Source: Steroidobacteraceae bacterium
GTDB taxonomy: Bacteria > Pseudomonadota > Gammaproteobacteria > Steroidobacterales > Steroidobacteraceae
Length of the DNA: 64,000 nt
Reading direction: 5' to 3'
Assembly (NCBI GenBank): GCA_019683695.1
Contig: JADGHX010000001.1
Coordinates: 62,001 to 126,000, forward strand
In this document: piece by piece, positions 55,622 through 64,000 of the stretch
Position numbering within the stretch: position 1 is the first letter of the stretch
How the letters are laid out: each line of letters starts with the position of its first letter
Made by a program: the position numbers and the translations under genes
Notes under the pieces: model-generated
Told to the model about the DNA's origin: nothing
Database searches by the model: none
What the model saw: the letters and a program-made list of their open reading frames with translations, nothing else

Positions 55622-56893
55622 ATGAGCGAGGCGGGTGGGTCGGTCGCGCGCGCGTCGTCGGGCAATCGTGCCCTTGCAGCGCTGAGGTACCGGGATTTTG
55701 CCGTCTTCGTGGTGGCGAGGTTTCTGACCACGTGGTCGTGGCAGATCCTGGGGGCCGCGGTGGGCTGGCAAGTGTGGCAGCTCACGCACAATCCCCTGGC
55801 CATTGCCTACATCGGGCTCGCGCAATTCCTGCCCTTCTTCCTGCTCGTGCTCTTTGCCGGACACGTTGCGGATCGGTCCGATCGACGGGTCGTGCTCGCG
55901 GTGGCGTACAGCGTCGAAGCTGCATGCGCGCTGATGCTCCTCTGGTTCACCCTGTCGGGCATCCAGTCGGTGTGGCCCGTGTTCGTGGCGATGACGCTGT
56001 TCGGCGCGGGCCGCGCGTTCTGGATGCCGACGGGCCAGGCCATCACGCCGAATCTCGTTCCACGCGAGGTCTTCCCGGGCGCGGTCGCGGTGAACTCCGC
56101 GTCGTTTCAGACGGCGGTCGTGACCGGCCCCGCGCTCGGCGGGCTGTTGCTCATGATCGGTCCGCAGGCGGCGTACGGAACGGTGTCCGTGCTGCTCACC
56201 CTCGCGGTGCTGCTCATTTCCAGCATCCGGCCGGTGCGTGCGCACGCGCAGGGCACAGCCTTCAGGTTCCGGGATGTGCTCGAAGGCCTGCGATTCGTGA
56301 TTCGGCGACGAACGGTCCTCGGCGCCATCTCGCTCGATCTTTTTGCCGTGCTCTTCGGAGGCGCCACGGCAATGATGCCGATCTATGCGAGCGACGTGCT
56401 ACACGTGAGCCCCGTAGGCTACGGCTTCCTGCGCTCAGCGCCTGGTGTCGGCGCGGCCGTCATGGCCGCGGTGCTCGCGTTCTCACCCCTGCAGCGGAAT
56501 ATCGGGCGCTGGATGTTCGGTGGCGTGGCGCTCTTTGGCGTGTCCACTATCGTGTTCGGCATCTCGAAGGTGTTCTGGGTGTCCTTCATCGCGCTGTTCC
56601 TGCTCGGACTCGGAGACATGATCAGCGTGTTCGTGCGGCAGCTGCTCGTGCAGCTCGAGACGCCGGATGCGATCCGCGGTCGCGTGAGCGCCGTCAGCTC
56701 CATGTTCGTCGGCGCATCGAACGAGCTCGGTGAAGCGGAGTCCGGATTCGCTGCGTGGCTGGTGGGGCTCGTGCCCTCTGTCGTGCTTGGAGGCGTGGCC
56801 ACACTGCTGGTCGTTGCCGGTTACATGAAGCTGTTCCCCGAGCTGCGCCGCATGGATCACTTCCCGTACGCGCAGGAGCGCTTTACCCGCTGA
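55622..56893 (+). CDS. MFS transporter (EntS-like)
   Basis: A 423-residue inner-membrane protein with about twelve hydrophobic helices. The first helix follows RYRDFAVFVVARFLTTWSWQ. The MFS signature between helices 2 and 3 is GHVADRSDRRVVL. The central loop (about 195-220) includes VRAHAQGTAFRFRDVLEGLR, as in the PF05977 (EntS/YbdA) exporters. The substrate is unknown; family members export siderophores or drugs. It ends 23 bp before the radical SAM gene and may share its transcript. Confidence 0.87.
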   Translation: MSEAGGSVARASSGNRALAALRYRDFAVFVVARFLTTWSWQILGAAVGWQVWQLTHNPLAIAYIGLAQFLPFFLLVLFAGHVADRSDRRVVLAVAYSVEAACALMLLWFTLSGIQSVWPVFVAMTLFGAGRAFWMPTGQAITPNLVPREVFPGAVAVNSASFQTAVVTGPALGGLLLMIGPQAAYGTVSVLLTLAVLLISSIRPVRAHAQGTAFRFRDVLEGLRFVIRRRTVLGAISLDLFAVLFGGATAMMPIYASDVLHVSPVGYGFLRSAPGVGAAVMAAVLAFSPLQRNIGRWMFGGVALFGVSTIVFGISKVFWVSFIALFLLGLGDMISVFVRQLLVQLETPDAIRGRVSAVSSMFVGASNELGEAESGFAAWLVGLVPSVVLGGVATLLVVAGYMKLFPELRRMDHFPYAQERFTR

Positions 56894-56916
56894 CTGTATA
56901 CGCGTACAGTGCGCGC

Positions 56917-58002
56917 GTGACACGGGCGATCATCGGCAAGGCGGCATACAAGGGGCGTGGCGCGCTTTCGAATCCGAGAGGGCGCTTCGATCGCACGGGC
57001 CTCGATGCATTCGATGACGGGTGGTATCGGGAAGAAGGCCCCGAGAGCATCGCCACCAGCGTGCAGCCGGAGCACGCTCGCAGCGTCATCAGCACCAACG
57101 ACTCTCCCGACGTCGGCTTCGAATACTCCATCAATCCCTACCGCGGCTGCGAGCACGGGTGCATCTACTGTTACGCTCGTTCGAGCCACGCATACATGGG
57201 CCTCTCGTCGGGTCTCGAATTCGAAACGAAACTCTTTTACAAGGCCGACGTCGCTCGCGTGCTGCGCGCCGAGCTCGCACGCCCCGGCTACACGTGCAAG
57301 ACCATCATGCTCGGCGCGAACACCGACCCGTATCAGCCTGTCGAGCGCCGGCTTCAGGTGACGCGCGCCATCCTCGAGACGCTGTCCGCCTGTCATCACC
57401 CCGTGGCAATCATTACGAAGAGTGTCGGAGTTGCACGGGATATCGACCTTCTTGCCAACCTCGCGCGGCGGAATCTCACGAGTGTGATCATCAGCATCAC
57501 CACGCTCGATGCCGAAACGAAGCGCACACTGGAACCGCGAGCGGCGTCACCTGAGGCGCGGCTCAGAACCGTACGGGCCCTTGCGGAGGCGGGCATTCCG
57601 GTGGGCGTGCTTGTCGCACCGATCGTGCCGGCCATCACGGATCACGAGCTGGAACGCATTCTCGAAGCAGCCGCGCAGGCGGGCGCCACCAGCGCCGGAT
57701 ATGTGTTGTTGCGTCTTCCGTACGAGGTGAAGGATCTCTTCCGGGAGTGGCTGGAGCAGCATTATCCGCAGCGTGCGCGACATGTGATGTCGCTCGTTCG
57801 CGACGCGCGCGGCGGACGCGACAATGATCCGAACTTCGGTACGCGCATGCGAGGCACCGGTCCGTATGCGGAAGCGATTCGCGCGCGCTTTCGCGTCGCC
57901 GCGCGCCGGCTCGGTCTCGACCAGCCGCGTGCGCGGGCGCTCGTTACCACGCTCTTCCGGCCCCCGCGGCCGGACTCGCCGCAACTCCAGCTCGAGCTCT
58001 GA
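56917..58002 (+). CDS. PA0069-family radical SAM protein
   Basis: A 361-residue product starting at GTG 56917 (MTRAIIGKAAYKGRGA). The radical SAM cluster motif is GCEHGCIYCYAR (CxxxCxxC; about 84-95). Segments GFEYSINPYRGCEHG and MLGANTDPYQPVE are typical of the PA0069/SplB-related family. The latter is related to spore photoproduct lyase, but the function of PA0069 proteins is unknown. The frame extends further upstream inside the MFS gene and is ignored. No maturation partner is adjacent. Confidence 0.87.
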   Translation: MTRAIIGKAAYKGRGALSNPRGRFDRTGLDAFDDGWYREEGPESIATSVQPEHARSVISTNDSPDVGFEYSINPYRGCEHGCIYCYARSSHAYMGLSSGLEFETKLFYKADVARVLRAELARPGYTCKTIMLGANTDPYQPVERRLQVTRAILETLSACHHPVAIITKSVGVARDIDLLANLARRNLTSVIISITTLDAETKRTLEPRAASPEARLRTVRALAEAGIPVGVLVAPIVPAITDHELERILEAAAQAGATSAGYVLLRLPYEVKDLFREWLEQHYPQRARHVMSLVRDARGGRDNDPNFGTRMRGTGPYAEAIRARFRVAARRLGLDQPRARALVTTLFRPPRPDSPQLQLEL

Positions 58003-58140: not shown

Positions 58141-58881
58141 ATGAACACCATGAAAGTCGGGTCTCGTTCTGCCGTTTCCCTTTCCCTTGCCGCTTGCCTC
58201 CCCGCAGTGCTGTTGTCGGGATGCATGCAGGCGCGTGTGGAGGAATCACGCGAGATGCCCACGCACATCGCCAAGGGCGAAGCGGTGGTCATTCTCGCCA
58301 AACCGCAGGTGGAAGGTGCCGGCGCCGAGGACGCCTTCATGGACTGCGTGAGCAACGAGCTGAAGGGTGGCAAGGCGAACATCATCGTCCACGGCAACGA
58401 CGAATTCGTTGACGCGATGTTTCCCTGGTTCGAGCCGGGAACGGCCCCTGCTAAACCCGAGGCGGTGACCGCCCTGCTGACGCGCCCCGGCGTGAGCGAA
58501 AAGGTTGCCGCCTCCGGCGTGCGTTATGTCGTTTGGCTCGATGGCAGCACGCAGAAGACGGACGGTGGTGGCAGCATCGCCTGCGGAGCCGCGCCGGGCG
58601 CCGCCGGATGCATTGGCTTCGGGTGGTGGGAGAAGGAATCCGCGTACGAAGCCACTGTCTGGGACCTGAAACAAGCCAAAACGGCGGGCAGCGTGGGCAC
58701 GAACGTTACCGGGACGTCCGCGATCATCGGCGCAGTCGTGCCCCTGCCGTTCATCGCGCGCGTGCAGAGTGCCGCGTGCAATCGCATGGCGGACCAGTTG
58801 CGCTCCTTCTTCACCGGTGATGGTGAGGCGCCTGCCGAAGCCGTGGCGACCACGACCACAGCCAAGGGAGCCGAGCCATGA
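58141..58881 (+). CDS. Uncharacterised lipoprotein 1 of the kinase operon
   Basis: A 246-residue lipoprotein: ATG at 58141 with AGGGA upstream, hydrophobic signal and lipobox LLSGC (Cys28). The mature part starts with a short segment, then EAVVILAKPQVEGAGAED, resembling the nucleotide-independent fold of CsgG/LpoB-like envelope lipoproteins in pattern only. Later come RYVVWLDGSTQK and a Cys-containing loop (IACGAAPGAAGCIGFGWW, Cys pair possibly disulfide-bonded). It ends Ala/Thr-rich. The last 4 bp overlap the next gene as ATGA. Not a family I recognise. Confidence 0.78.
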   Translation: MNTMKVGSRSAVSLSLAACLPAVLLSGCMQARVEESREMPTHIAKGEAVVILAKPQVEGAGAEDAFMDCVSNELKGGKANIIVHGNDEFVDAMFPWFEPGTAPAKPEAVTALLTRPGVSEKVAASGVRYVVWLDGSTQKTDGGGSIACGAAPGAAGCIGFGWWEKESAYEATVWDLKQAKTAGSVGTNVTGTSAIIGAVVPLPFIARVQSAACNRMADQLRSFFTGDGEAPAEAVATTTTAKGAEP

Positions 58882-59936
58882 ATGCCATCCCCGGGCGTGA
58901 TTCACCACGCCTCATCCGGTGCGTCGTGTCCGCCGCGGTGGCGAGCGCGCTGCTGATCGCTGCGGGTTGCCAGACGAGCTCGGGAGGAGGCAGACCTTCA
59001 CCGAGCACGCCCACCAGTTCCGGCTCCGAAAGCAGCACGGGCTCCGAGAGCAGCAGCAGCGGCTCACAGGGCAGCAGCGGCTCCCAGAGCACGAGCGGCT
59101 CCGAAAGCAGCGGCTCGCAGCAAGGCGCGCCGAGCACCTCGGGGAGCGAGTCCAGCTCACCCGGCGGAACGAACGGTTCGAGTGGCACGGCCGGCGCGCC
59201 GGTGCCGTCGAACACCGGCTCCGGCACGCCCTCGGGCACGGGCTCCGCGCCAGGGCAGCCGTCCACGCCGGCCGGCTCGTCTGAACCCGGCATCCCTTCG
59301 CCCTCCACTCATTCAGGTACGCAGGGCGGAGGCTCGGCGGGCGGCTTGCCGCAGCCGAGCGGGTCGCAGCAGTCCGGCACGGCGGGTGGGTCCGCTTCGG
59401 GCACGGCCCAGCCGGGCGGCGCTCAGCCGGGCGGGGGAGCGCAAACGCCAGAGGAGCGGCGTGCGGCAATCGATCGCAGGCTCGATGAGTCGCTCGGCAA
59501 GCTGGATGAGCAGATCCGTCGCGAGCAGGAGCGTACCGCGCAGGAGCGCGATGCACGTGCGGCCAGCGGCAGTGCCGCCAACCCGGCCAGTGATACGGAT
59601 GCCGACGGCAATGGGAGTGAGGCGGCTGCCGGCACGGCGGAAACCGAGGTGCCTGGCGCGGCGGGCGAGGGCACGGGTCCGAAGGACGACGAGGGACGAC
59701 CGAGCCGCCCCGGCGATCTGAAATCGGACAAGCAACGCAAGGCTGAAGGCAGCGCCAGCGGCAGCAGCGGCGGCGCGCAGGGTTCCGGTGCCACGGCCAC
59801 CGAGATTCCGGACGGCAGCGACGATGACATCGTGGCACGCCGTCTGCGCAAGGCGGCCGAGCAGGAAACCGATCCGGAGCTCAAGGAGAAGCTCTGGAAG
59901 GAATACATCGAGTACAAGAAGAACGCGGGCAAGTAA
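58878..59936 (+). CDS. Low-complexity Ser/Gly-rich lipoprotein 2 of the kinase operon
   Basis: A 352-residue protein with lipobox IAAGC (Cys31). Residues about 35-190 are an unstructured Ser/Gly/Thr/Pro-rich linker with repeats such as SGSES, SGSQ and GAQPGG. Then follows a charged helix (EERRAAIDRRLDESLGKLDE, about 192-215), another disordered Gly/Asp/Glu stretch, and a conserved-looking helical end (RRLRKAAEQETDPELKEKLW). The linker could span the periplasm or reach the surface. Overlaps lipoprotein 1 by 4 bp. Function unknown. Confidence 0.75.
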   Translation: MNAIPGRDSPRLIRCVVSAAVASALLIAAGCQTSSGGGRPSPSTPTSSGSESSTGSESSSSGSQGSSGSQSTSGSESSGSQQGAPSTSGSESSSPGGTNGSSGTAGAPVPSNTGSGTPSGTGSAPGQPSTPAGSSEPGIPSPSTHSGTQGGGSAGGLPQPSGSQQSGTAGGSASGTAQPGGAQPGGGAQTPEERRAAIDRRLDESLGKLDEQIRREQERTAQERDARAASGSAANPASDTDADGNGSEAAAGTAETEVPGAAGEGTGPKDDEGRPSRPGDLKSDKQRKAEGSASGSSGGAQGSGATATEIPDGSDDDIVARRLRKAAEQETDPELKEKLWKEYIEYKKNAGK

Positions 59937-60029
59937 GCGCGACAGACAGGCGCCCGGGGAGGGGCCGTGCAGGCTGCGGGGCACGCTGACGAGGTGTCCA
60001 GGGTCGACGCGAGGAAAAAGGTGAACAAC

Positions 60030-61379
60030 ATGATGCGGCAAGCACTCATTGCGCTCGTTGGCGCAGCCGTCGTGAGCCAGCTCGGCGGCTGCATGGTCAG
60101 CGAGACCAAGCCCCTGCCCAAGATCAACCCGGTGCAGGCCAAGGTGCAGATTCCCGAGGACGAGCTGCTGGACGTCGGCGTCCAGGAGTTCGATCCGAGC
60201 ATCCCCGAAGAGATTGCGAACGACCCGGAAGCCCTCGCCAAGAAGCGCATCTATCCGGATATCCGCAAGGCGGAAGCGCGGTACATCCCGACGCTGCTCC
60301 GCTCGACCCTCGAGTCCTCCGGCCAGTGGGGCGCGGTGCGCGTCGTGCCCGCCAACCTCGAATTCATCGATGTCATCGTGTCGGGAAAGATCATCGAGTC
60401 CACGGGAGCGAAGCTTGCTGTTGAGGTCTCGGTCACGGATTCCACGGGGCGCGCCTGGATCAGCCACAAGCGCTACGAGAGCCCTGCGGATACCGGGTCG
60501 TACAAGACGGACAACGCCCTGCGGGCACGGGATCCTTTCCAGAACGTGTACTCACAGATCGCGAACGACATGGTGGCGGCCCGCGATGCGCTCCTCGCGC
60601 AGGATCGGCGTGAGATCCGGCGCGTCACCGAGCTGCGCTTCGCGCAGGACCTCGCGCCTGCCGCCATGAGCGGCTATCTGCAGAAGGACGAAAAGGGGCT
60701 CTTGAAGGTGGCCCGCCTGCCCGCCGAGAACGATCCGTTCACCACGCGTATCGATCGCATCCGCGAGCGCGACGCCGGTGTCGTGGATACCGTGAACGGC
60801 TACTACGCCAACTTCTCGGAGGCGATGCGCGATTCGTACGGCAACTGGCGCCGCACGAGCTTCGATGAGATCGAGAAGGAAACCCGCGCGCGCAATCAGG
60901 CGCGCACGCGCACCTTCCTGGGCGCCGCCGCCGTGCTGGCGAGCGTGTTCGTGCCCGGCCAGTGCGCGTCATACGACTACAACTGCCGCCGCATCGAGAG
61001 CGCGGCGCGCACGGCCGGTGCCATCGGCGGCACCGCTGCCGTGCTCTCGGGATTGAAGAAGTATTCAGACGCCCGGGTGCATGCCCAGGCGTTGAAAGAG
61101 CTGTCGGAAAGCTTCCAGAACGAAGTGCAGCCGCAGGTGGTGGATGTGGAAGGCCGCACGCTGCGCCTCACCGGCACCGCCGATGAGCAGTACCGCGAGT
61201 GGCGCAAGCTCCTGCACGAGCTGTATCTGGAAGAGAACGGCACCGACGGGCGCCCCGCCCCCGCGACAGCGGCGCCGGCTCCCGCCACGACGGACAGTGC
61301 CCCGGCCACGGAGGGCAGCGCGACAGCTCCGGTCAAGCTTGCGACTGAACAGCCCGCTTCCACTCCAGTGAGGCCATGA
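60030..61379 (+). CDS. Uncharacterised lipoprotein 3 of the kinase operon
   Basis: A 449-residue lipoprotein from ATG at 60030 with AAGGTGA upstream (alternatives GTG 60021 and ATG 60033). The lipobox is QLGGC (Cys21). The mature domain (about 25-230) has VQIPEDELLDVGVQEFDP and AVRVVPANLEFIDVIVSGK, alternating strands and helices. A helical part with a Gly/Ala-rich hydrophobic stretch (TFLGAAAVLASVFVPG, about 290-305, possibly membrane-associated) follows, and the tail is Ala/Thr/Pro-rich. No family recognised. It overlaps the kinase gene by 4 bp (ATGA), which ties them functionally. Confidence 0.78.
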   Translation: MMRQALIALVGAAVVSQLGGCMVSETKPLPKINPVQAKVQIPEDELLDVGVQEFDPSIPEEIANDPEALAKKRIYPDIRKAEARYIPTLLRSTLESSGQWGAVRVVPANLEFIDVIVSGKIIESTGAKLAVEVSVTDSTGRAWISHKRYESPADTGSYKTDNALRARDPFQNVYSQIANDMVAARDALLAQDRREIRRVTELRFAQDLAPAAMSGYLQKDEKGLLKVARLPAENDPFTTRIDRIRERDAGVVDTVNGYYANFSEAMRDSYGNWRRTSFDEIEKETRARNQARTRTFLGAAAVLASVFVPGQCASYDYNCRRIESAARTAGAIGGTAAVLSGLKKYSDARVHAQALKELSESFQNEVQPQVVDVEGRTLRLTGTADEQYREWRKLLHELYLEENGTDGRPAPATAAPAPATTDSAPATEGSATAPVKLATEQPASTPVRP

Positions 61380-64000
61380 CCGAAGCCGTTATTGCCAATT
61401 CGGGAGGAATGCTCTCCTCGCGCTACACGCTGCTCGAGAAGCTCGGGACCGGCGGCCAGGCCGAGGTCTGGCGCGCACGGGACGAAACGGCCGGCATCGA
61501 GGTGGCGCTCAAGATCCTGAGCCCGGCTCATGCCCATGACGAGGGCGCGTGGGCGGCGCTCGTGCGCGAGCACGCCATTGCGAGCAAGCTCGATCATCCG
61601 GCTATCCTCAAGGTGTACCCGCCCCATCGGGAGGGCGATTTCGTCGCGCTGCCCATGGAGCTGGCCTCCGGCGGCGATCTGCGGCGCCTGCGGGGCAAGA
61701 GCTATCTCGATGTCGTCCCCGTGCTCATCGACATTGCGCAGGGGCTCGAGTACGCGCACGAGCACGGCGTCATCCATCGCGATCTGAAGCCGGGCAATAT
61801 TCTTTTCGATGCGCGCGGGCGCGTGCGCATTGCGGATTTCGGCATCGCCGGCGTGCCGGGTGAGGTGCCGCCGGCGGGCACGCGGCCCGGGCTGTCTCCG
61901 TTCACCGCGAGCCCGGAGCAGTTGCGCGGCGAACCGCCGGCCATCTCGGATGACATCTATGGCCTCGGCGCGCTCGCGTACGAGCTGCTTTCCGGGTATC
62001 CGCCGTACTACCCGCGCTTCGAGGTGAAGCGCGTGCTGGAAGAGCCGGTGCCTGACCTGAAGCCGGCGCACATCATGCCCCGGCAGCTCGTCAGCACCGT
62101 GATGCGCATGCTCTCGAAGCGCGCCGCGCACCGGCCGCGCACGATGCGCGAAGTGATCGACGAGCTCGACGCAGCGCTCAACGACACGCTGGCGTTCGAG
62201 TTCGAGCCGGTGGACGAGCCTGACGGCCCGACCGCCGCCATGAAGCGGGATGCGGCCGTGATCGCCGCGGCGGAAGCCGCGCGACGCGGCAGTGCGTCCC
62301 CGGGGGCCTCCGCCGGTCCGGGCGTTCCCGCAAGCCGGGATCCCGGCGCCCCTGCGCCGGCCCCTCGCCTGGAAGCCCCCGGCGTGCCGTACGGATCGAA
62401 TACGGTCCGTCCGGTTGCGTATGCGCCCACATTTGACGCGTCGGAGAAACAATCCAGGCCAGCAATCGCGCGATCCGTGGAGAACCCGCGGAGCCGGCCC
62501 GGCAAGCCGGCGAGTGCGGGGATCTCGCCACCGCCCGCGACCTACGGGGCCACGTACGGGCTCGATTCCCCCACGATCCCCGGCTTCCAGCCGGAGGAGT
62601 CCGCGCCCGCCGTCATGGACATGGCGCCCCCACCGTCCGATCCGCCCATCCTGGCGGAACGACGGGGCGAGAACGGCAGTGTGCTCGCGGCCGCTGCGGA
62701 AGCCGTGCGCGAGGAAGCCCCTCATCTCGTGGCTGCCCGCGCGGTGCCCACGTACTGGGATCAGGCGCGTCTGCGCGCACAGCCCTCCATGCAGTACCTG
62801 CGCACCCGAGGGCAACGTCGGCGCAGCTGGCCCTGGGTGGTGCTGAGTGCGCTCGTTGCGGGGGCGGCGGTCGTGTTTGTCGTGCTGCCGAAGTATGGCG
62901 TGCCGAATCTTCCGTTTGATACGGAAGCCCTGCGCGCCCGCGTGCTTGATTCCCTGCCCCGGCCCGCCGCCCCAACCGAGGCGCCAGCGGAAAAGGGCTC
63001 GGAAAGCACCGCGGCGAAGGTCAAGGCGGCCGGCGAAAAGCCTGCGGCAATGGCTAGCGCGAATGTGCCGGCGCCACGCGCGGGAAGTGCCGAACCCGAG
63101 GATGCGAAAGCTCGAGCCGAGCGTGAGGAACGCCTGAAACAGGCGCGTGCCACGTACCAGCAGCGCCTGGACGCACTCGAGGCGCGCGGCGCGGGTGTGT
63201 GGGGCGGCGCCGACTTCGCCACGGCCAAGACACGCGCGGCGGAATCTGTCGGGGCGCACGATGCCGGCAGCATTGAGCTCGCGGAGCAGCGTTTGAACGA
63301 GGCCCTGCGTCTGCTCGGCGTGGTCGAATCACGCGCCAGCCAGACGCTCGCCAATCAGCTCGCGGCGGGCGAGCGGGCCCTCGCCGCCGGTCAGGCCGAA
63401 GTGGCTCGACAGGCGTTCGAATCCGCACGTCGCATCGATCCCGACAACGCCCGCGCGAGGGAAGGGCTGCAGCGCGTTCGCAATCTCGGCGGCGTGCTGC
63501 CGCTGCTCGCCGATGCCGAGAATGCGGAAGCGGAAAAGGACTGGTCGCGGGCCGTGCAGGACTACAGTCAGGCGCTGTCGCTGGACCCGGGAAATACCAG
63601 AGCACGCGCCGGGCTCAATCGCGCGAATGCTGCGCTCGGCGAAGACACTTACGCGAAAGCCGTCGGCGCGGGATTCGCGGCGCTCGGCGTGGGCCGGCTC
63701 GAGGAGGCGCGCGAGGCGTTCGAGAAAGCACGCCGCATTCGTCCGAATGGCGAGGAGGCGCGCAACGGCCTCTCGCAAGTGAATGCAGCGCTGCGGGCTC
63801 GTGGGTTTGCCAGTGCCCGGCAGCGCGCCGTCGCGCTCGAAGCCGAGGAGCGCTGGGCCGATGCCGTGAAGGCGTACGACGAGGCGCTGAAGATCGATCC
63901 GTCCCTGGTCTTCGCGCAGCAGGGGCGCGCTCGCGCCCAGGCTCGGGCGGATCTCGCGGAGCGACTGCAGTCGCTGATCGATCGGCCGGAGCGTCTGGCG
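61376..64000 (+). CDS. Transmembrane Ser/Thr protein kinase with TPR-like outer region, cut by window edge
   Basis: At least 875 residues visible. The kinase domain (about 16-275) has the glycine loop GTGGQAEVW (24-32), catalytic Lys46 (VALKIL), HRDLKPGN (134-141, Asp136, Asn141) and DFG (154-156), so it should be active. A Pro/Ala/Ser-rich juxtamembrane region (about 290-480) leads to one membrane helix (about 485-505, WVVLSALVAGAAVVFVV). Outside, a coiled segment and repeats with TPR-like spacing follow (GQAEVARQAFESARRIDPDN, then EKDWSRAVQDYSQALSLDPG). The repeats presumably sense envelope partners such as the three lipoproteins upstream, whose last gene overlaps this one. Confidence 0.92.
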   Translation, partial: MTEAVIANSGGMLSSRYTLLEKLGTGGQAEVWRARDETAGIEVALKILSPAHAHDEGAWAALVREHAIASKLDHPAILKVYPPHREGDFVALPMELASGGDLRRLRGKSYLDVVPVLIDIAQGLEYAHEHGVIHRDLKPGNILFDARGRVRIADFGIAGVPGEVPPAGTRPGLSPFTASPEQLRGEPPAISDDIYGLGALAYELLSGYPPYYPRFEVKRVLEEPVPDLKPAHIMPRQLVSTVMRMLSKRAAHRPRTMREVIDELDAALNDTLAFEFEPVDEPDGPTAAMKRDAAVIAAAEAARRGSASPGASAGPGVPASRDPGAPAPAPRLEAPGVPYGSNTVRPVAYAPTFDASEKQSRPAIARSVENPRSRPGKPASAGISPPPATYGATYGLDSPTIPGFQPEESAPAVMDMAPPPSDPPILAERRGENGSVLAAAAEAVREEAPHLVAARAVPTYWDQARLRAQPSMQYLRTRGQRRRSWPWVVLSALVAGAAVVFVVLPKYGVPNLPFDTEALRARVLDSLPRPAAPTEAPAEKGSESTAAKVKAAGEKPAAMASANVPAPRAGSAEPEDAKARAEREERLKQARATYQQRLDALEARGAGVWGGADFATAKTRAAESVGAHDAGSIELAEQRLNEALRLLGVVESRASQTLANQLAAGERALAAGQAEVARQAFESARRIDPDNARAREGLQRVRNLGGVLPLLADAENAEAEKDWSRAVQDYSQALSLDPGNTRARAGLNRANAALGEDTYAKAVGAGFAALGVGRLEEAREAFEKARRIRPNGEEARNGLSQVNAALRARGFASARQRAVALEAEERWADAVKAYDEALKIDPSLVFAQQGRARAQARADLAERLQSLIDRPERLA

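Follow-up and report, generated by a model that had tools for sequence, protein, structure and literature searches.

The three lipoprotein genes and the transmembrane Ser/Thr kinase gene at the 3′ end of the window, a stretch of 64,000 nucleotides from a Steroidobacteraceae bacterium, are quite probably the 5′ genes of a conserved operon that encodes a trans-envelope machine driven by the proton-motive force. The preliminary description of the window had recognized lip1, lip2, lip3 and the kinase gene as a unit with two ATGA overlaps and short gaps, and this is borne out by the open reading frames: the four genes lie tightly together on one strand, an ATGA overlap joins lip1 and lip2, the lip3 stop codon (61377-61379) overlaps the kinase start codon (ATG 61376) in the same manner, and the lip2-lip3 gap comprises 84-96 bp, depending on whether lip3 starts with GTG 60021 or with ATG 60030/60033. 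The kinase gene crosses the edge of the window. As had been suggested, we followed the sequence past 64000: the kinase gene extends to 64342, and behind it lie six further genes in the same orientation, separated by 0-24 bp or slightly overlapping (contig C281 of genome G000; Table 1). The complete operon has 13 kb, and since the window stops inside the kinase gene, the preliminary description covered only about 40% of it. The membrane-anchored 87-aa protein encoded between the FGE-fold and Hsp70-like genes was detected in close relatives only. Just beyond lip4, a convergent TPR gene is found on the minus strand (L009:15459-17552), and the C-terminus of its product resembles a TonB-type domain.

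Table 1. Features of the operon in the window and its continuation (L009 positions are locus coordinates)
Feature	Position	Strand	Description
lip1	58141..58881	+	246 aa lipoprotein; lipobox LSGC-MQ, Cys28
lip2	58878..59936	+	352 aa lipoprotein; lipobox AAGC; long Ser/Gly linker
lip2 conserved C-terminal segment	59817..59933	+	DDDIVARRLRKAAEQETDPELKEKLWKEYIEYKK
lip3	60021..61379	+	452 aa lipoprotein; lipobox LGGC-MV; operon marker
lip3 globular domain, weakly TolB-N-like	60153..60710	+	Foldseek on AF2 model
lip3 long helical hairpin	60735..61124	+	AF2 helices 239-309 and 320-368
Transmembrane Ser/Thr kinase-TPR protein	61376..64000, on to 64342 (L009:5377-8343)	+	988 aa; Pfam
Kinase domain (VALK, HRDLKPGN, DFG)	61424..62137	+	Pfam; lineage-specific add-on
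Kinase protein transmembrane helix	62834..62893	+	sequence reading
Periplasmic TPR region, conserved part of kinase protein	63113..63955	+	Pfam
1st gene after kinase			826 aa; FHA-like N-terminus, one TM, 4 PEGA, FGE-sulfatase fold
2nd gene after kinase	L009:10849-11112		87 aa, membrane-anchored
3rd gene after kinase			453 aa; Hsp70/actin-like and FHA
4th and 5th genes after kinase			vwa1, vwa2; vWA proteins
6th gene after kinase			lip4; fourth lipoprotein

Within the order, about 40 loci share the gene arrangement, and it is kept in the class-level loci, some of which are truncated or degraded, and in five loci outside the class, which belong to a family there. The marker gene lip3 was found in 61 of the 98 genomes that represent the family and order and in 27 of 369 genomes of the class, and strong lip3 matches were obtained in 16 of 398 genomes of the phylum; strong matches to vwa2 occurred in exactly the same 16 phylum genomes. 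The linkage is neither strain-specific nor a matter of chance, as it is repeated in about 40 genomes in the order and outside it, which answers the question of neighborhood conservation raised by the preliminary description. The core that is held across many families and beyond the class has the order lip2-lip3-TPR-FGE-exbA-(Hsp70)-vwa1-vwa2. The upstream neighborhood is conserved as well, since many genomes of the family have MFS transporter and radical-SAM genes (window 55622-58002) 5′ of lip1.

It is the content of this core, with its TolQ-like channel and its pair of TolR-like vWA proteins, that argues for a motor and not for a sensor. Between the FGE-fold and Hsp70-like genes, relatives have about 1 kb of extra sequence for the TolQ/ExbB-type channel exbA, which matches Pfam MotA_ExbB (E 1.9e-15 for the L010 protein, 2.3e-12 for the copy of the window's own genome) and has weak similarity to TolQ of the PDB (E 0.004); Thr208 and Thr241 of its ion ring are invariant (23/23). 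The vwa1 and vwa2 proteins are homologous, with 26% identity, and their genes are adjacent in every operon locus that is long enough to hold both. Each begins with an ExbD/TolR-like inner-membrane helix (FLD-xxx-C-xx-G), whose Asp17 is invariant in 55/55 and 56/56 sequences, respectively, and the MIDAS motif D-x-S-x-S of the vWA domain is kept in 56/56. According to Pfam, the operon proteins of the window's genome include no tolR/exbD product. Most relatives have the TolQ-family gene beside the vWA genes, and exactly one exbA gene was found per operon genome in all tested genomes. In the window's genome and in genus g10, this single copy is unlinked: the window's genome has one divergent copy on a 9.7-kb contig (C213, 8713-9501, L093), and in the one-contig genome G009, which has the operon without exbA, the sole copy is located about 1.45 Mb away (C1:593048-593824, L112). 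In a quick tree, the unlinked copies form a single clade (SH-aLRT 98) beside a genome with exbA at the operon end; a displacement of the original copy, possibly by transfer, is therefore probable in these two genera. With an exbA that is both unlinked and from a divergent branch, pairing with vwa1/vwa2 is presumed for the window's genome. With a MotA/TolQ-type channel and B subunits, the operon could also be read as an anti-phage defense motor of the Zorya kind, and the kinase does match PADLOC kinase models. These matches are spread over many unrelated kinase models and are therefore generic, no other tested protein had a PADLOC match, vwa2 was not found on plasmids by tblastn, and the operon is stable across families, so that we consider a defense motor extremely improbable. 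Membership in Zorya itself was rejected, as there was no PADLOC Zorya match and ZorA-ZorD were not found.

To our knowledge, there are only few 5:2 motors driven by the proton-motive force for which the job is known (Mot, Tol, Ton, Gld, Agl). Another type was predicted in 2025, when TPH-vWA pairs encoded beside TolQ-like genes were modeled as 5:2 motor complexes (Mol Biol Evol 2025, Fig. 4c-d; msaf138, PMC12204202), and the function of the vWA transducers was stated to be unknown in that study. The operon shares with these motors a TolQ-like gene and a heterologous vWA pair with a TolR-like Asp helix, in the absence of tolR/exbD, and by its sequence it appears to possess every testable feature of TPH-vWA motors as described there, with exbA being unlinked in the window's genome. 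Unlike the published motors, it adds a kinase, FHA, Hsp70-like and PEGA/FGE proteins, and lipoproteins; the msaf138 section on TPH-vWA motors names none of these as partners, and the word kinase is absent from the main text. For the orphan class of TPH-vWA motors, the operon supplies a list of parts with a conserved core, along with predicted partners in the outer membrane and a candidate phospho-switch, and thereby makes the function testable by ordinary deletions.

The kinase was described in the preliminary account as having intact catalytic motifs and an outer TPR-like region, and both stand: VALK, HRDLKPGN and DFG are present in the window's copy, Pfam recognizes Pkinase (E 3.7e-36) and TPR (E 1.7e-13), and the outer part consists of TPR and a weakly PEGA-like tail. 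A PASTA kinase (PknB/Stk1) was rejected, as there are no PASTA repeats outside the membrane and the NF033483 score of 185 lies below the cut-off of 450. The same account had seen an envelope-sensing system in which the lipoproteins report to the kinase, and in its full form this alternative is an envelope-stress sensor in which signals pass from the lipoproteins to the TPR region, the kinase and cytosolic FHA proteins, with the motor-like genes as ancillary components. The intact motifs agree with it, as do the two FHA or FHA-like proteins encoded downstream and the position of the kinase, which, where split off or moved, is still within or close to the operon: in L073 and L074 it is an open reading frame of its own directly upstream, and in L061 it lies about 1.2 kb beyond vwa2. 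However, most loci at the class level and all loci of other classes have no kinase domain but keep lip2, lip3, TPR, FGE, exbA and vWA genes. The orthologues from there have about 500 aa and mostly consist of a transmembrane helix and TPR, and TPR matches were also obtained for the kinase-less orthologues L114 and L150. In the operon tree, kinase-bearing loci occur in a single clade only, which comprises 35 loci and within which the kinase apparently was lost several times. On this sequence evidence, the kinase is a lineage-specific add-on and not part of the operon core. A conserved, seemingly co-transcribed envelope system thus remains of the earlier proposal, but not the kinase as its sensor center, and with lipoproteins that are predicted to reside in the outer membrane (see below), we regard the sensor as unlikely.

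Kinase and FHA domains tend to go together. A strong FHA domain is present in 30/30 kinase-bearing loci and missing in 16-18 of the 19 kinase-less ones, which corresponds to a Fisher p of about 1e-10 to 1e-12 for 49 loci that are related by descent. As the loci are related, there are only five independent pairs on the tree, three of them concordant and none discordant (p 0.25), and the association, which is not significant after this correction, is suggestive. The FHA domain of the 453-aa protein accompanies an Hsp70-like region (E 1.6e-4). In the 826-aa protein, the N-terminal FHA-like region is a reading of the sequence, and several orthologues are weakly matched by the FHA profile. The latter protein is not an active formylglycine-generating enzyme: Cys is absent from the last 50 residues in 63/63 sequences, and the C-terminal catalytic Cys pair is therefore lacking.

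The lipoproteins had been noted as belonging to no recognized family, and profile searches agree, as lip1, lip2 and lip3 had no Pfam or NCBIfam match above cut-off; sequence searches of the PDB gave no match for lip3 and none of note for lip1. A suggested CsgG-type relationship of lip1 holds at the level of the modeled fold. The AF2 model (pLDDT 81.4) is predicted to contain a PelC/CsgG-like alpha/beta domain, with PelC as closest structure (5t0z, E 1.3e-6), followed by FlgT and CsgG in Foldseek, and this likeness is one of predicted fold, as the sequence does not match the CsgG or PelC families. The alignment of 25 lip1 orthologues has 34 invariant columns, which include four Cys besides the lipobox. 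From the lip1 model, the FGE-fold domain that resembles the one of GldK, and the encoded motor, one could deduce an export apparatus with a ring or pore of PelC/CsgG-like lipoproteins in the outer membrane, which the motor opens for a polymer or protein, similar to Pel, curli or T9SS systems. This seems quite improbable to us, since no barrel, cargo or synthase gene was recognized in the operon, lip1 is missing from many loci, and the Foldseek results for the lip1 model show that its fold is also common to many non-pore lipoproteins (LptE, HpaA). The Ser/Gly-rich character ascribed to lip2 is evident at about residues 30-185, and conservation across families is mainly found in the last ~35 residues (39 tails compared); lip2 adjoins lip3 in nearly all loci. 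Ten columns are invariant among 44 lip3 orthologues, and in the AF2 model of lip3 (pLDDT 87.5) the globular domain weakly resembles TolB-N (4r40, probability 0.99, E 8.4e-3, low TM-score), with further TolB entries matched by Foldseek.

In E. coli, Asp at position +2 results in inner-membrane retention of lipoproteins. None of the lip1, lip3 and lip4 orthologues with a recognized lipobox has Asp at this position, so that inner-membrane retention is not predicted, which speaks against lipoproteins that report to the kinase at the inner membrane; by the E. coli rule alone, lip1, lip3 and lip4 are predicted outer-membrane lipoproteins. In the window's family, lip1 and lip4 flank the operon, in several other families they form a separate pair on the opposite strand, and in some class-level genomes they are found at the operon end. 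They are accessory and not core components.

For the proton-driven machine that we favor, we infer complex formation, stoichiometry, motion, membrane location and phospho-control as follows. A pentamer of the TolQ-like exbA in the inner membrane would enclose the two TolR-like helices of a vwa1/vwa2 heterodimer, and protons passing the invariant Asp in either helix would cause the periplasmic coiled coils and vWA heads to turn or move. A periplasmic frame, which PEGA may anchor to peptidoglycan, would be made up of the TPR protein together with the PEGA/FGE-fold protein. At the predicted outer-membrane end, lip3, lip1 and lip4 would receive the motion, and the long linker of lip2 could connect the frame or the motor with the conserved segment at the lip2 C-terminus. 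In this lineage, with a Ser/Thr kinase fused to the TPR protein and FHA fused to an Hsp70-like cytosolic protein, the kinase/FHA layer may confer phosphorylation-dependent assembly or on/off control. Our best guess for the role is a force transduction that is similar to that of Tol or Glt; the task it serves may be envelope maintenance, surface transport, or the handling of adhesins or polymers. With Tol-Pal, the operon shares a TolQ-like channel, TolR-like helices, the weakly TolB-N-like domain of lip3 and the trans-envelope layout, but vWA replaces the periplasmic domain of TolR, and kinase, FHA and PEGA are added. An identity with Tol-Pal was rejected, as Pfam detected no TolA, TolB beta-propeller or Pal domains in the operon proteins. 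In its plan, the operon resembles the Agl-Glt machine of Myxococcus (PMC3169522), by analogy of one TolQ-like and two TolR-like subunits (AglR, AglQ and AglS), TPR proteins, the FHA-TM-periplasmic protein GltG and an outer-membrane lipoprotein; AglQ and AglS, however, are ExbD/TolR family proteins without vWA, and GltG has a TonB domain. An FGE-fold protein alongside a motor driven by the proton-motive force is also known from GldK-GldLM of the Bacteroidetes T9SS, and the FGE-fold protein hits NCBIfam GldK below the cut-off (E 4e-32). Unlike here, where the FGE domain is part of an FHA-like/TM/PEGA protein, GldK is a lipoprotein, and the motor subunits differ.

More tentatively, and with less than even confidence, we propose that the TPR-fused kinase phosphorylates a partner in the motor and that FHA domains, one of them linked to Hsp70, read this mark to switch the motor on or off, the kinase having been added to an older, kinase-less motor. 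If true, a proton-driven rotary or pulling motor that acts on outer-membrane lipoproteins would be under the control of eukaryotic-type Ser/Thr phosphorylation. The operon illustrates how a kinase/FHA pair may be grafted onto an existing envelope machine.

Beyond the main loci, genomes of family f9 have a second, minimal paralogous operon (L082, L083) with neither kinase nor Hsp70-like gene, which the tree puts together with distant loci; one of these genomes (G067) has it in addition to a full version (L070). The lip3 and TPR genes of L124 (G280) are in pieces and other operon genes were not found nearby, which looks like a decaying operon copy. Extra lip3-like genes are present at L081 and L084, where no other operon gene was detected in the vicinity.
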